Assembly: GCF_014696715.1 (NCBI RefSeq)
Contig: NZ_JACJQO010000005.1
Span: forward strand, 372,001-436,000
DNA: 64,000 nt
DNA from: Pseudanabaena sp. FACHB-2040
GTDB taxonomy: Bacteria; Cyanobacteriota; Cyanobacteriia; Phormidesmidales; Phormidesmidaceae
Direction of reading: 5' to 3'
Shown here: positions 7,846 through 51,910 of the stretch, in pieces
How the letters are laid out: each line of letters opens with the position of its first letter
Position numbering within the stretch: position 1 is the stretch's first letter
The notes under the pieces: generated by a model
What the model saw: the letters and a program-made list of their open reading frames with translations, nothing else
The model's database searches: none
Told to the model about the DNA's origin: nothing
Translations under genes and position numbers: made by a program

Positions 7846-8254
7846 GATCTAAAGTGCCAATCCCTGGGGGCATTTACCCGCAACGGTAGCGCAGTTGGCA
7901 GAAAACGTTGGCAATTCTCTGAATTAAACGACTGCCACTGCAAGGTCGTTGGCTTGCTCGAAGAACGTAAAGGTCTAATAAGGAAGCGCCCTTGTCAGAA
8001 AAACGTCTGCTTAGCCTGCCCGGTTACCAGTTTCTCTAGACTAGAAGCAGGCATGACTCAGGTTTTTGCTGTGACTTTGGTCTGCTCATAGCGGCAGCTG
8101 TTGTTGATCTGGGCCTGTTAGCTTTGTTTCCTAAAGCCAACATACGGAGCTTCGATTCAACCAATTGCTACAGGGGAAGAACAGGCCAGAACCCAAGCTA
8201 GCAATATTGGAGCAGCTTTAGTCAAAAGGAAGTCGGAAGGGAATGGATGGCAGA
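7846..8254. other. 409-bp intergenic region without recognised gene
   Basis: I see no tRNA, no open frame with coding character and no classical terminator. A long-range pair GCCTGC (8018-8023) with GCAGGC (around 8051-8056) could form an RNA stem. The region may contain promoters for the 38-aa ORF on the minus strand and an unrecognised RNA. Confidence 0.4.
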
Positions 8255-8500
8255 TCAAGCTCCCTGAGCCAGCGCTGGATTTTCCTCGGCCAGCATATTA
8301 GCTGTTAGGGGCTGCAGGTTATAGCCTACAACTGGAATACCTTGGCAAAAAATGCCTAGCTTGGAGCGCATTTCAAAAGCGGGCTTGCGGCTCTGCTGCC
8401 ATTCTTTTTCGGTGTAGAGCTTATAGCCCTGGGAGCCGGTCACTAGCTGGACCGGCGTTTGCCGAGAGCGGGAGACGAGTAGATGAGTGGGTTGGAACAT
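8255..8500 (-). CDS. Conserved cyanobacterial hypothetical protein (81 aa)
   Basis: Small soluble protein with the N-terminal phrase MFQPTHLLVSRSRQTPVQL and a C-terminal GIFCQGIPVVGYNLQPL. I recall similar proteins in many cyanobacteria (from memory). It has no catalytic motif, membrane segment or signal. It lies downstream of the acyltransferase gene on the same strand, separated by 139 bp containing a terminator-like hairpin, so it probably has its own promoter. Confidence 0.65.
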   Translation of the reverse strand: MFQPTHLLVSRSRQTPVQLVTGSQGYKLYTEKEWQQSRKPAFEMRSKLGIFCQGIPVVGYNLQPLTANMLAEENPALAQGA

Positions 8501-8574
8501 TTTCTAAGGGCTGCCTGAAACAGCGAAGGTTGTTTATCTATAAAACTCTTTTTTTAAAGGGAGGAAAATGAGGA

Positions 8575-8598
8575 GAACCGAGAGATAGCCTTCGGTTC
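8575..8598 (-). terminator. Hairpin downstream of acyltransferase gene
   Basis: GAACCGA (8575-8581) pairs with TCGGTTC (8592-8598). On the minus strand it is followed by a T/C-rich stretch, which suggests a modest terminator for the acyltransferase message. Confidence 0.45.
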
Positions 8599-8639
8599 CC
8601 CGAATGAGTAATTCTTCTTCTATCTCGCGATAGAGGGCT

Positions 8640-9578
8640 TTAATCATCATTTTGCTGCCCTTTTTCTTCTTCAACCAGGCGATCTAGCTCCAGCTGCATG
8701 AGCCGGGTTACTCGGTGGTAGCACTCATCAACATAGGCTTTGTCGTGGGCAGCTGCATCGCCATAGCGATCGAAAAAGATGGGGCGGCAGATGCGGGTAT
8801 GTAGCTGCACTGGCAGAGGAATGTTGGGCAAAGGGCCTAGCGCCAAACCCCAAGGCAAGCCCAAGTAGATTGGCCAGGTGCCCGGATCGATGCCCCAAGG
8901 CCAGGGTATACCCCGATGGTGCAGCCGCTGAAGAACGGGATAGACATCGGCCAGAATAAACAGGGTGGAGTGGGCCCCGTAGGAGATTAGCGGCACTATC
9001 GGTACGGCTTCTTGCAGGGCCAGCTTGATGAAGCCCTGATGCCCCCCAAAATGAATCTTGTGTCGCAGCGCGTGGGGTCGAAACACATCCTTCAAGCCGC
9101 CGGGGTAAATAAGCAGGCTAGCATTTTGCCGTAGGGCTGCTAGGGCTGTTTGAGGGTGCGCTCGCAGGGCCCCCACTTGGGTAGCCAGACGGGCCAAAGC
9201 AGGCCAAACCCGCCACATTCTAGATTCCATTTGGGCATAGATGGGCCGCTCTGTCCCAAAGTGTCTAAACCAGTCGTAGGCCATCATGACAGTATCGGGC
9301 GCAGCCCATCCGCCGTTGTGCGAACCAATAAGAAGGACTTTGCCCTCGGCCGGAATGTGTTCCCAGCCATCGGTCTTGACTCGGAAGTAATGGCGATATA
9401 CGCCCCCAAAAAAGGGCAGCAGTTTTTCGATCACGTGGGGGTCTCGATCCTCTAGAGACCAGCCGGTCAACGTATTGTTTGGGGTAGCAGCGGCTTTGAG
9501 GTACTGCGATACCAGAAAAGCAGCAGAGTCTGAAAAAGTCTCTGGAGGCGGCATTGGGTAGTGGCGTGGTTGAGACAA
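8640..9578 (-). CDS. Lysophospholipid/diacylglycerol acyltransferase-family protein
   Basis: Glycerolipid acyltransferase of the LPLAT superfamily, MGAT/DGAT-like branch. The acceptor motif region is LLIGSHNGGWAAPD (about residues 83-96), a variant of the NHxxxxD box in which the His is kept and the Asp is further away. The second block LLIYPGGLKDVFRP (about 155-168) matches the glycine block for phosphate binding. Cyanobacterial members such as Synechocystis slr2103 make neutral lipids like triacylglycerol or phytyl esters (literature knowledge); whether this protein is orthologous is not certain. It has no obvious transmembrane helix but several hydrophobic, Trp/Pro-rich patches near residue 225 that could contact the membrane. 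Confidence 0.75.
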   Translation of the reverse strand: MSQPRHYPMPPPETFSDSAAFLVSQYLKAAATPNNTLTGWSLEDRDPHVIEKLLPFFGGVYRHYFRVKTDGWEHIPAEGKVLLIGSHNGGWAAPDTVMMAYDWFRHFGTERPIYAQMESRMWRVWPALARLATQVGALRAHPQTALAALRQNASLLIYPGGLKDVFRPHALRHKIHFGGHQGFIKLALQEAVPIVPLISYGAHSTLFILADVYPVLQRLHHRGIPWPWGIDPGTWPIYLGLPWGLALGPLPNIPLPVQLHTRICRPIFFDRYGDAAAHDKAYVDECYHRVTRLMQLELDRLVEEEKGQQNDD

Positions 9579-42774: not shown

Positions 42775-43164
42775 ATGACCCGCAAAGTAATTCAAACAGA
42801 CAAGGCTCCCGCCCCCGTCGGCCCCTACAACCAGGCCATTGCCGCTAGCGGTCAACTGCTCTTTGTCGCCGGCCAAATTCCCCTTGATCCGGTTTCCGGC
42901 CAGATTGTTGGCGAAGGCGATATCGCAGCTCAGACAGAACAAGCGATCGCAAACCTGTCTGCCATTCTAGAAGCAGGCGGAACCACCCTTAACAGCGTGG
43001 TCAAGACTTCAGTGTTTCTCAAAGACATGAATGATTTCGCAGCAATGAATGCGGTTTACGCCCAACACTTTGGCGACGAATCGGCCCCGGCCCGCGCTTG
43101 CGTCGAAGTGGCCCGCCTACCCAAGGACGTGCTGGTCGAAATCGAGTGCATCGCTGTCATCTAA
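42775..43164 (+). CDS. ridA: RidA-family enamine/imine deaminase
   Basis: 129-aa protein that hydrolyses reactive enamines from PLP enzymes. The key Arg is in [20 protein letters not shown] near 104-123, and the motif [24 protein letters not shown] near 17-40 is diagnostic of the YjgF/RidA family. It is followed by a short gap and the convergent TPR protein gene. Confidence 0.93.
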
Positions 43165-48795: not shown

Positions 48796-48960
48796 AATAG
48801 GCTGCGTTTACTTCTCAAACGGCCCCTAGTCACCCCACCGAGCTTTATCAGTCAGTTCAGGTATCAAGCTCTCTTGAGAGGGCTAAACTTCTCTTGGGCA
48901 TATTTGTCCAGGGTGAACCTTTTGGGAACACCAGAGAATGATATCCATCCTTTACTGATC

Positions 48961-49674
48961 ATGCTGAAATCTACCAATCTCCCTGCAATTGCTATGGGCC
49001 GCTATGTCAACGCCGATCCCTATCCCTATCCCTACAACGGAGACTTGCGACCCAACAATACGGCGCTAATTATTATTGATATGCAGACCGACTTCTGTGG
49101 TCAGGGCGGCTATGTAGACAAAATGGGCTACGACCTGACGCTGACCCGTGCCCCTATTGGCCCTATTAAGACAGTGTTGGCCGCAATGCGCGAGCACGGT
49201 TACACCATCATCCACACCCGCGAAGGCCACCGCCCCGATCTCTCCGACCTACCAGAAAATAAGCGTTGGCGCTCTCAGCGAATTGGCGCAGGTATTGGCG
49301 ACCCTGGCCCCTGCGGCAAAATTTTGGTGCGGGGAGAACTGGGCTGGGAGATTATTCCCGAACTAGCTCCCATTGCGGGTGAAGTCGTGATCGACAAACC
49401 AGGCAAAGGCTCGTTCTACGCTACCGACCTGGACCTGATTCTGCAGCGCCGAGGCATTCAAAATATTATTTTGACGGGCATTACTACTGATGTCTGTGTT
49501 CACACCACCATGCGCGACGCCAACGACCGAGGCTATGAATGTTTGTTGCTGGCCGACTGCACTGGTGCTACAGACTACGGAAATTATCTGGCCGCTCTCC
49601 AGATGATTAAGATGCAGGGTGGCGTATTTGGTGCTGTAGCAAGTTCCCAGGATTTAATAGAGGCAATCGGCTAA
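48961..49674 (+). CDS. Cysteine hydrolase (isochorismatase-like, biuret/ureidoacrylate type)
   Basis: Isochorismatase-superfamily amidohydrolase, about 237 aa. The catalytic triad is Asp in [11 protein letters not shown] (D40), Lys in VIDKPGKG (K146) and Cys in [11 protein letters not shown] (C179). The extra segment [15 protein letters not shown] near 85-99 and [10 protein letters not shown] resemble biuret hydrolase, triuret hydrolase and RutB proteins, suggesting an amide- or ureide-type substrate. Start uncertain: ATG 48961 or 48994, no strong ribosome site. First of a three-gene operon; its stop overlaps the ATG of the ABC ATPase by one base. Confidence 0.8.
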
Positions 49675-51221
49675 TGGATGCGATCGCAGTGAAGCCAGAA
49701 ATACCCCTAGTCGTCCCCCCCGAACTCAAAGTGGTGGAGATGACCAAGCACTTTGGCAGTTTAGTGGCTTTAGATACAGTCTCTCTGCTGTTAAGACCCG
49801 GCACCTTTCATGCCCTTTTAGGCGAAAACGGGGCTGGAAAGAGCACCTTGGTCAAATGCATTATGGGGTTTTATGCGCCGACCTCCGGCGAAATTCTGGT
49901 CGATCAGCAGGTTCACAAAATCAAAAGCCCCAGAGATGCCCATGAGTGCGGCATTGGTATGGTGTATCAGCACTTCACTTCGGTTCCTGCCATGACTGTG
50001 GCTGAGAACCTGGTGCTGTCTCGCTACGACACCGGCACGATGATCAACTGGAAGGCAGAGTACGAAGAACTTCAAGCCTTTATGGAGCGCTCTCCCTTCC
50101 GGGTGGACCTAAGAATGCCCGTAGGCCAGCTGGCTGCCGGACAAAAACAAAAGCTGGAAATCCTCAAGCAGCTCTACCTCAAGAGCCGCATTTTAATCTT
50201 AGACGAACCCACCTCAGTGCTGACCCCCGACGAAGCCGACGAGGTCTTAGGACTGATCCGCCAGGAGGTCACCGCAGGTCATCTCAGCGTTCTGCTGATT
50301 ACCCATAAGTTTCGGGAGGTAACCGCTTTTACTGATGAAGTAACGGTCTTGCGGAAGGGCAAGCAAGCCGGTCAGGGCCTGGTCAAAGACTTGTCTATCG
50401 AAGAAATGGCCCACATGATGCTGGGCGAAGAACGCAAGGCCAAAGAAGTTGCCAAAGTCGCTGTCGATAATCGGCAGCCCGTTCTAGCGGTAAAAGACCT
50501 GCACGCCGACAAAGACAACGGCCTGCCTGCCATCCACGGCCTTAACCTGACCGTCCATTCCGGTGAGATTGTCGGCATTGCAGGGGTATCTGGCAACGGT
50601 CAGCGGGAGCTGGTCGAAGTGCTGGCCGGTCAACGGCTGCCTACCCAAGGCACCATCTTGGTCAACGGCACCCCCTACGGAGCCACACGAGCTGAGATGT
50701 TCCGTCACGGGGTCTGCGCTCTGCCTGAGGAGCCGCTAAAAAATGCCTGTGTGCCCACCATGTCGGTCGCAGAAAACATGGCCCTGCGAACATTTGATCG
50801 GGCTCCTCAAGCCAAGTGGAATGTCTGGCTCATGCTCAAGGCCATTCGCAGCTCGGCTCAAGAACTCATCACCCGTTTCTCGGTCAAAACCCCCACTCCT
50901 GAGACGCCTGTGGGCAACCTGTCTGGAGGTAACGTGCAGCGCACTGTGCTGGCCCGCGAGCTATCCTCAGAGTCGGTCAAGCTGCTGATTGCCGCTAACC
51001 CCTGCTTTGGCCTCGACTTTTCAGCAGTGGACTTCATCCACAACTCTATTGTGGAAGCTCGCAATCGCGGGGTTGCCGTGCTGCTCGTTAGTGAAGATAT
51101 AGACGAACTGCTGGCTTTGGCTGATCGCCTAATCGTTATCAGTGAAGGGGAGTTTGCCTACGAAAGCTCGATTGAGAGCGCAGATATCAAAGTGATCGGT
51201 CAGAAGATGGCAGGGCACTGA
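49674..51221 (+). CDS. Double-domain ABC transporter ATPase (BMP/sugar-type)
   Basis: 515-aa ATPase with two nucleotide-binding domains like RbsA, MglA or the BMP-family (nucleoside-type) importers. First domain: Walker [10 protein letters not shown] near residue 50-58, signature LAAGQKQ, Walker [10 protein letters not shown] near 177-185. Second domain: degenerate Walker [11 protein letters not shown] near 305, signature LSGGNVQR, Walker [13 protein letters not shown] near 439-450. The phrase NPCFGLDF is typical of BMP-type importers. The partner permeases and substrate-binding protein are not in this operon. Flanked by two cysteine hydrolases, so the transported solute is probably their substrate or its precursor. 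Confidence 0.85.
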
Positions 51222-51223
51222 GC

Positions 51224-51910
51224 ATGAACACCCTTGCCGCTCAACCCTACGACTACCCGCTGCCCGTCGATACTGGCGTTGCGCTGATTATTATTGACAT
51301 GCAGCGAGACTTCCTAGAGCCAGGAGGCTTTGGTGATGCCCTTGGCAACGATGTTGCTCGGCTGCAGACTATTGTCCCCACTGTAAAGCGCCTGCAAGAT
51401 GCCTTTCGAGCAATGGGGCTGCCGATCTTTCAAACTGTAGAGGGTCACCAAAGCGACCTGTCCGACTGTCCCCCTTCAAAGCGCGATCGCGGTCAGGCCA
51501 GCCTCAAGATTGGCGACCCTGGCCCAATGGGCCGCATTCTAGTACTAGGCGAACCCGGCAACGCCATCATTCCCGAACTGGCTCCCCTGCCGGGAGAAAC
51601 AGTCATTCCCAAACCGGGAAAAGGTGCGTTCTACAACACCAACCTAGAATTCTTGCTGAAAACCCACAACATTAGTCACCTGCTGATTGCGGGGGTAACC
51701 ACCGAAGTCTGTGTCCAGAGCACCATGCGCGAAGCCAACGATCGGGGCTATGAGTGCCTGCTAATAGAAGACGCTACCGAGAGCTACTTCCCAGAGTTCA
51801 AGCAGGCCACGCTGGAAATGGTGCGGGCTCAAGGCGGCATTGTCGGTTGGACGACGACAGCCAATTGTGCGATCGCAGGTTTAACCGCCAAGTTTGCCGT
51901 CAAAGCCTAA
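51224..51910 (+). CDS. Second cysteine hydrolase of the operon
   Basis: Paralog of the first gene. Triad D25 in [12 protein letters not shown]130 in [11 protein letters not shown]163 in [16 protein letters not shown]. Both share the block EGH-DLSD and GDPGP-GRILV-GE near 73-110. Its first 20 residues and last 30 differ from the first copy, and the Asp after the triad Cys region is altered, so a related but different substrate is likely. It begins two bases after the ATPase stop, with ATG 51224. A GTAGAGAC palindrome follows the stop by 10 bp. Confidence 0.82.

Follow-up and report, generated by a model that had tools for sequence, protein, structure and literature searches.

The stretch analyzed here, 64,000 nucleotides of contig NZ_JACJQO010000005.1 of the cyanobacterium Pseudanabaena sp. 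FACHB-2040 (positions 372,001 to 436,000; hereafter the window), carries on its + strand an array of three genes, delimited from its list of open reading frames (ORFs), for a biuret hydrolase (BiuH), a double ATP-binding cassette (ABC) ATPase and a hydrolase of the triuret hydrolase (TrtA) type. These genes probably make up one piece of an ancestral operon, now in at least three fragments, that served the uptake and breakdown of oligo-ureas, namely triuret and biuret. In the proposed system, a BMP-type binding protein and two permeases (PermB and PermC) encoded on contig C12 of the same genome, driven by the window ATPase, would import triuret and biuret. TrtA would strip one ammonia from triuret to yield carboxybiuret, which would become biuret by loss of CO2, and BiuH would convert biuret to allophanate. 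Allophanate would then give urea by decarboxylation, either spontaneous or aided by a stand-alone C-terminal domain of allophanate hydrolase (AH_C), and urease would free the remaining nitrogen from urea. The substrates and their transport, the last step, and the link between the ATPase and the remote permeases are inferred from sequence comparisons.

Hydrolases and ATPase of the window

The frame of the first gene is open from 48874 to 49674. The first possible start is TTG, an ATG is present at 48961, and the in-frame ATG at 48994 is a better fit to the N-terminus of the family consensus; nothing else is affected by the choice. The ATG of the ATPase gene shares one base with the stop codon of the first gene, and two bases lie between the ATPase stop codon and the ATG of the third gene. 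A preliminary description, made from the sequence alone, had reported this overlap and gap, D-K-C triads in two isochorismatase-type hydrolases, a double ABC ATPase of the BMP type between them and the absence of an adjacent permease or binding protein. All four points were borne out. The ORF coordinates agree with the spacing, Pfam gives Isochorismatase matches of 146.0 and 148.7 bits for the hydrolases, both of which have the triad, as well as two ABC_tran stretches for the ATPase, and no permease or binding protein was found among the neighbouring genes (window ORFs and Pfam). The array is not fortuitous, because many relatives carry the BiuH-ATPase pair as well.

Sequence evidence assigns the first gene to BiuH. 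Its product scores 420.8 bits against the NCBIfam equivalog model for biuret amidohydrolase, NF050097 (cut-off 370), and its best solved relative is the BiuH of Rhizobium (6azo, 410.8 bits). It keeps the Asp-Lys-Cys triad, Phe41, Lys145 and Gln215 given for BiuH in PMC5806882. The third gene is predicted to code for TrtA. Its product reaches only 247 bits against NF050097; among solved structures 6xix ranks first (280.8 bits), followed by 6xjm ('Biuret hydrolase', 207.6) and 6azo (203.0). The structure 6xix is that of the TrtA of Herbaspirillum (PMC7948467). Six positions at which the consensus sequences of TrtA and BiuH differ were chosen in the same article; the third gene is TrtA-type at all of them (F35, N41, A134, E160, Y187, and I205, in addition to the shared Q202), and the first gene is BiuH-type at 6 of 6.

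These residues were also checked in 25 TrtA-type and 40 BiuH-type proteins (matches of at least 200 residues and more than 45% identity, plus four TrtA and four BiuH proteins from named Pseudomonadota). F35, N41, A134, E160, and Y187 were present in 25/25 proteins of the TrtA set and I205 in 24/25. In the BiuH set, Y, Y, D, and T occupied four discriminating positions in 39/40 proteins, V stood at the I205 position in 40/40, and the A134 position held S in 28 and A in 12. The Asp-Lys-Cys triad was found in 65/65 proteins of both types. Because the residues are BiuH-type in the first gene and TrtA-type in the third, the best reading is that of two sequential enzymes, acting on triuret and then on biuret. 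The preliminary description had offered either two steps or two alternative enzymes; on the basis of the discriminating residues the former is retained and the latter is not.

The one BiuH row that deviates at the four positions comes from contig C30, where a paralogue (L016 7218-7937, or G000:C30:33217-33936) also lacks the Gln of Q202. This third BiuH-like hydrolase (275.8 bits) has atypical residues at several specificity positions and adjoins apparent type I restriction-modification genes. It is under the BiuH cut-off and without the substrate-binding Gln (Q202/Q215). It was excluded from the count of system members.

The first half of the ATPase has Walker A (GENGAGKST), Walker B and the switch His. 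The second half has LSGGN, a Walker A without GKS/T and a degenerate Walker B, and such a degenerate second half is usual for BMP-type ATPases. A double ATPase with BPD_transp_2 permeases is also found in the B6 and sugar ABC transporters (NF047930, RbsA, XylG, AraG); unlike these, the window ATPase stays under the curated cut-offs, including those for sugar transporters, in all of its best 25 of 187 NCBIfam matches (the top one at 424 vs 670). In its own genome, where 3 of 105 candidates were scored, it is the sole match to itself at E <= 1e-100.

Transporter genes and apparent break-up of the operon

The genome of the strain (6.28 Mb, 44 contigs, 99.95% complete) has one Bmp match in a Pfam search (C12:143638-144402) and six BPD_transp_2 permeases. 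Two of these, PermB and PermC, follow the BMP gene on contig C12, where no ATPase gene was found in the stretch read. Two others are in a urea transporter locus next to ureG, with UrtA and UreG confirmed by NCBIfam, and the last two form a LivHM-type pair by reading of the ORFs. The BMP has, by reading of its sequence, a twin-arginine stretch and a lipobox-like Cys. All parts of a BMP-type importer are encoded in the genome (binding protein, two permeases, and double ATPase), divided between C12 and the window's contig, C5, rather than gathered in a single operon. The preliminary description had called for a genome search for orphan BMP-type permeases and binding proteins, and had supposed that an amide or ureide nitrogen source is imported by an ATPase working with permeases elsewhere. 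The search yielded the C12 genes. The supposition is supported by sequence evidence, since the only BMP detected in the genome and its permease pair stand without an ATPase and since in relatives these parts lie beside the same hydrolases. That permeases elsewhere work with the ATPase is a well supported prediction.

Six proteins of the strain served as queries for a search of L015, L016, part of the window, and 60 loci from relatives, the latter a non-random sample picked for matches to BMP, BiuH or the ATPase. The order BMP-PermB-PermC-BiuH-ATPase-TrtA, on one strand, was complete in 16 of the 60 loci, from several cyanobacterial families (L081, L082, L083, L084, L085, L086, L088, L089, L090, L096, L097, L100, L119, L125, L137, and L138). 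The loci read from relatives within the window's family include 18 with a separated BMP (L101-L116, L118, L120). The ATPase was not in the fetched stretch in 16 of these 18, some stretches reaching a contig end; in L118 and L120 a BiuH-ATPase pair lies near the separated BMP on the other strand. BMP, ATPase, and BiuH are on three different contigs in G257. In two loci (L107 and L112, of genomes G012 and G325) the stretch that was fetched holds the BMP but not the permease pair, the transporter being further scattered there. In L128 (genome G032, 8236-8930) BiuH matches in two adjoining pieces and is apparently interrupted, and the ATPase and TrtA match fully.

A scan of named genomes covered the best 80 of 552 confirmed BiuH relatives, with thresholds of at least 38% identity for the ATPase and at least 200 bits for the AtzF amidase; several of the cyanobacterial contigs are short, and presences in the cyanobacterial loci are lower bounds. 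In 36 loci of Pseudomonadota, the ATPase and BMP were both present in 34, TrtA in 34, AtzF amidase in 26, formamidase in 12, and AtzD in 8. In 32 loci of Cyanobacteriota, the ATPase was present in 27, TrtA in 23, BMP in 12, stand-alone AH_C in 8, and formamidase in 6; AtzF amidase and AtzD were found in 0/32. BMP was present in 3 of 10 loci of Verrucomicrobiota, Acidobacteriota contributed one locus, and one SAR324 locus has BMP, both permeases, BiuH, ATPase, TrtA, and AtzF. The operon order also occurs on annotated plasmids of Sulfitobacter pontiacus, Rhizobium sp. BG4 (the second permease gene of which is missing from the PLSDB table), R. indicum, and Ideonella dechloratans. A permease and binding protein next to these genes in relatives with a known sugar or nucleoside function had been named beforehand as a refutation; the adjacency was found, and no established function of that kind was seen.

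Quick trees, with support from the Shimodaira-Hasegawa-like approximate likelihood ratio test (SH-aLRT) only, have several weak inner branches; the order within clades is not identical, and the outgroup of the ATPase tree is long and doubtful. The separated ATPases of the family form one clade (18 rows, SH-aLRT 99), as do the separated BMPs (20 rows, SH-aLRT 95), a clade that includes G005 of another family, the ATPase of which is absent from the ATPase tree. The strain's ATPase and BMP are placed alike, as sister to G317, G257, G243, and the separated copies of G329, G169, and G189, with support of 80 and 91, respectively. Second, intact operon copies of G134, G169, G189, and G329 fall elsewhere in both trees. 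Because the ATPases and BMPs of the family, where separated, fall into one clade each, with a similar inner order, the simplest reading is apparently that an ancestor of this family underwent a single break, between PermC and BiuH, and that both halves were mostly kept. The separated genes of other families (ATPase of L091, L093, and L095; BMP of L092 and L098) fall outside these clades, so the operon has also broken in other families. In L093 and L095 (genomes G079 and G043, of another family), the BiuH-ATPase pair adjoins urea transporter genes, with UrtA, UrtB, and UrtC confirmed in L093 and the genes of L095 read from ORFs only.

Co-occurrence was counted in 388 cyanobacterial genomes. BiuH was above the cut-off in 146, BMP was counted at a best E < 1e-130 (160 genomes; 27 weaker matches, all with E > 1e-87, were dropped), and the ATPase at a best E < 1e-150 (154 genomes; 8 weaker ones dropped). 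The ATPase and BMP were both present in 148 genomes, the ATPase only in 6, BMP only in 12, and neither in 222; at least two of the 12 (G103 and G217) carry an ATPase of 65-66% identity on reading of the loci. For BiuH and the ATPase, the numbers were 138 with both, 8 with BiuH only, 16 with the ATPase only, and 226 with neither; for BiuH and BMP, 142 with both, 4 with BiuH only, 18 with BMP only, and 224 with neither. In the window's family (60 genomes), 46 had the ATPase and BMP, 2 the ATPase only, 5 BMP only, and 7 neither.

Table 1. Coordinates of the predicted system members in Pseudanabaena sp. FACHB-2040 (L, stretches read outside the window).
Feature	Location	Strand	Basis
Gene 1, biuret hydrolase BiuH (isochorismatase-like cysteine hydrolase), assigned from sequence	window 48961..49674	+	NF050097 match, 6azo, six discriminating positions
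Gene 2, BMP-type double ABC ATPase, predicted importer motor	window 49674..51221	+	two ABC_tran stretches, BMP co-occurrence, similar trees
Gene 3, predicted triuret hydrolase TrtA	window 51224..51910	+	6xix best solved relative, six TrtA-type positions
BMP	L015 8477-9667		C12 locus G000:C12:143476-146850
PermB	L015 9739-10836		C12 locus, directly after BMP
PermC	L015 10901-11851		C12 locus, after PermB
Stand-alone allophanate hydrolase C-terminal domain (AH_C)	L153 6028-6456		PF21986, 142.8 bits
Formamidase	L153 6612-7637		NF009803, 583.7 bits, cut-off 406

Binding pocket, rival explanations and contrary observations

By sequence, the solved BMP nearest to that of the strain is AtzT (structure 6pi5; 212 bits, 38% identity). 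AtzT binds guanine, with a KD of about 110 nM, and 2-hydroxyatrazine, and its ligand lies between Tyr45 and Trp194 with Ser97, Phe98, Glu165, Asn218, and Asn220 (PMC6834077). Like AtzT of Pseudomonas sp. ADP, the BMPs of triuret clusters belong to the BMP family and nearly always keep the Tyr45/Trp194 sandwich, Ser97, Phe98, and Asn169 (with Trp or Phe instead of Tyr45 in a few). Unlike AtzT, the strain's BMP has Gln, His, and Asp in the alignment in place of Glu165, Asn218, and Asn220. Position 165 is Gln in 36/41 cyanobacterial BMPs (Pro in 4, Leu in 1) and in 4/4 from Pseudomonadota, and positions 218/220 are His/Asp in 45/45. The nine pocket positions read YSFQQNWHD in 34 of these 45 BMPs and in 39 of the 50 that were obtained from 51 named loci with a BMP match; the latter have Gln at position 165 in 47, Thr in 3, and His/Asp in 50/50. 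The two sets overlap, at least L162, L172, and L198 being the same records as L096, L084, and L088. YSFQQNWHD was found in 0/10 control BMPs of the same class, which are only 20-32% identical and roughly aligned, 20 of 30 control loci having been dropped for want of an ORF of more than 300 residues at the match. With its aromatic sandwich kept and the polar edge of AtzT replaced, the pocket speaks against guanine as the ligand. Conserved, unlike a guanine site and shaped around a flat ligand, it would suit biuret or triuret.

It is unlikely, on this evidence, that the transporter imports purine bases or s-triazines and that the hydrolases merely clear internal breakdown products such as biuret and triuret. 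Such a role would agree with the kinship to AtzT, with the presence of AtzD in some rhizobial operons and with a 2025 article in which the adjacent transporter is labelled a nucleoside transporter (PMC12625717). Against this role stand the exchange of the three polar AtzT residues in nearly all triuret-cluster BMPs examined and of Thr139, behind the guanine of AtzT, mostly for Gln, and the lack of AtzD in the named cyanobacterial loci.

Less probable still is that the ATPase is unpaired with the C12 permeases, either as a leftover of the operon or as a servant of the Urt or LivHM-type pair. The window and C12 loci are unlinked in the genome, which would suit this reading; yet the frame of the ATPase is uninterrupted and 64-80% identical to its separated family counterparts, a strong BMP match is missing in only 6/154 ATPase-bearing genomes, and the ATPase and BMP trees are similar. 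The adjacency to urea transporter genes in G079 and G043, the former without a strong BMP match, would suit it as well; against it, the strain's own Urt locus already has, by reading of its ORFs, two ATPase genes. It is very improbable that the BiuH and TrtA names are an over-annotation and that the hydrolases act as alternative enzymes on other amides, such as ureidoacrylate or nicotinamide. For this reading, the isochorismatase-like family is a broad one, with weak matches to RutB and nicotinamidases, and no TrtA model is among the NCBIfam matches. Against it, the first gene passes the BiuH cut-off and reaches 120.6 on RutB, where 377.95 would be needed; the triad and the substrate-binding residues are as reported, and at the six positions the two genes differ in the manner of the characterized enzymes.

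Several observations weigh against the reading of the window genes as a fragment of an oligo-urea operon. TrtA adjoins the ATPase in only 3/12 separated BiuH-ATPase loci of the family (window, L128, and L135). In six loci (L122, L123, L126, L127, L136, and L139) the ATPase lies directly behind an aminotransferase gene (PF00155 in the one locus of the six that was scanned), and the stretch fetched contains neither a hydrolase nor a permease of the system. Further substrates are suggested by the occurrence, within the same operons, of formamidase and, in Rhizobium, of AtzD. Because BiuH over the cut-off is absent in 16/154 ATPase-bearing genomes, the transporter may have uses besides the BiuH pathway, and the Fisher p < 1e-74 for co-occurrence ignores shared ancestry. 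The His/Asp pair is present in 1/10 control BMPs. It is also present, in the alignment, in the Brucella BMP 3s99, the ligand of which is presumably adenine; this protein keeps the Glu, leaving only E165Q and the change at position 139 distinctive.

Nitrogen control adds a further point of this kind, as no box of the NtcA type, the consensus of which we take to be GTAN8TAC, was found at the strain's own BiuH or BMP gene. The motif was sought in 450 bases upstream and 30 inside the gene, against 200 shuffles that kept single-base content only. It was present before BMP in 11/19 intact loci (for example L085, L089, and L097; shuffle mean 2.37, maximum 7), where L125, L137, and L138 are close relatives and the site of L099 is inside the gene start. 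Before BMP of split loci it was found in 4/22 (shuffle mean 2.25, about chance) and before BiuH of split loci in 3/20 (shuffle mean 2.01), a group that includes the C30 paralogue and loci in which BiuH is not the first gene. Controls gave 2/18 for BiuH inside operons, 1/21 for TrtA, and 2/36 for PermB. Nitrogen control of the intact operons is only suggestive, and that of the strain's own genes is unsupported.

End of the pathway and known systems

The third predicted fragment of the oligo-urea operon lies on the same contig as the window, 160 kb from its genes (C5:584027-585636), and consists of a stand-alone AH_C gene and a formamidase gene. The formamidase is 86% identical to that encoded between PermC and BiuH in L086, and in G113 (L135; also L185) AH_C and formamidase genes lie directly before BiuH-ATPase-TrtA. 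A second stand-alone AH_C protein (L155 6387-6785, or G000:C10:109386-109784; PF21986, 103.9 bits) adjoins an ABC ATPase that by its look is of another type.

No allophanate hydrolase above the cut-off, and no AtzF amidase, was found in the strain's genome. The best amidase match (219.8 bits vs a cut-off of 511.05) was rejected as AtzF, its sequence looking GatA-like, and we take it to be GatA. Allophanate hydrolase was found in 5/50 chosen BiuH-bearing cyanobacterial genomes. Urease alpha is present in the strain (C1:315499, 1002.9 bits) and matches in 339/388 genomes, 315 of them above the cut-off. By eye, a match is present in 139/146 BiuH-bearing genomes, although in some of them it is weak or broken into pieces; the other seven (G279, G284, G296, G309, G344, G368, and G380) are fragmented assemblies of 370-1050 contigs. 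The C domain of allophanate hydrolase decarboxylates, and the stand-alone AH_C may speed this step. In urea amidolyase, the N and C domains of allophanate hydrolase have been reported to catalyze sequential reactions (PMC5770610), and allophanate is unstable, yielding urea and CO2 (PMC6219798). As allophanate hydrolase was not found, urease is present and allophanate is unstable, the likely end route is from allophanate through urea to ammonia. A broader proposal is more tentative and, in our judgement, somewhat doubtful: a dedicated oligo-urea ABC importer would be common in cyanobacteria together with a rewired pathway, in which the AtzF amidase was dropped, stand-alone AH_C decarboxylates carboxybiuret and/or allophanate, nitrogen passes to urea and urease, and the operon of the family lies in two to three mostly retained pieces. 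On this proposal, biuret and triuret would be a natural nitrogen source for phototrophs, beyond fertilizer residues.

A TrtA-BiuH-AtzF triuret pathway has been described for Herbaspirillum sp. BH-1 and Rhizobium leguminosarum (PMC7948467). The cyanobacterial system is like it in both hydrolases, their residues and their clustering, and unlike it in the lack of AtzF amidase in the 32 named cyanobacterial loci and in the placement of the strain's genes in at least three places. In nitrifiers, biuH-trtA-trtB-atzF stand beside bmpA-nupABC, labelled a nucleoside transporter (PMC12625717). As in that cluster, a BMP-type transporter adjoins the same hydrolases in the operon-bearing relatives; unlike the label given there, the pocket and co-occurrence argue here for an oligo-urea importer, split from its ATPase. 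Overall, the system is best called one of known enzymes and a known transporter type, the apparent cyanobacterial differences being the end route and the scattered genes. In the open-licence literature, searched in part, no paper joining biuret or triuret hydrolase with cyanobacteria was recognized by title. A map of BiuH was reportedly published by Robinson in 2018 in Environ. Microbiol. and may already mention cyanobacteria.

If the oligo-urea reading is true, it would give a substrate to a transporter that is now left unnamed or called a nucleoside transporter. It would also be a case of a broken operon whose parts have nonetheless been kept in one genome. With the BMP pocket signature, such importers could be sought and tested directly across several phyla.

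Upstream of the array, the neighbouring genes code for a GH1 glycosidase and a transferase of the MGDG-synthase type, and downstream for a hemerythrin protein on the opposite strand. No Rfam matches at gathering thresholds were obtained in the window, L015 or L153. A nitrogen-related, enamine deaminase-like protein, which from its own sequence we take to be RidA (YjgF), is encoded at window positions 42775-43164, 5.8 kb upstream.

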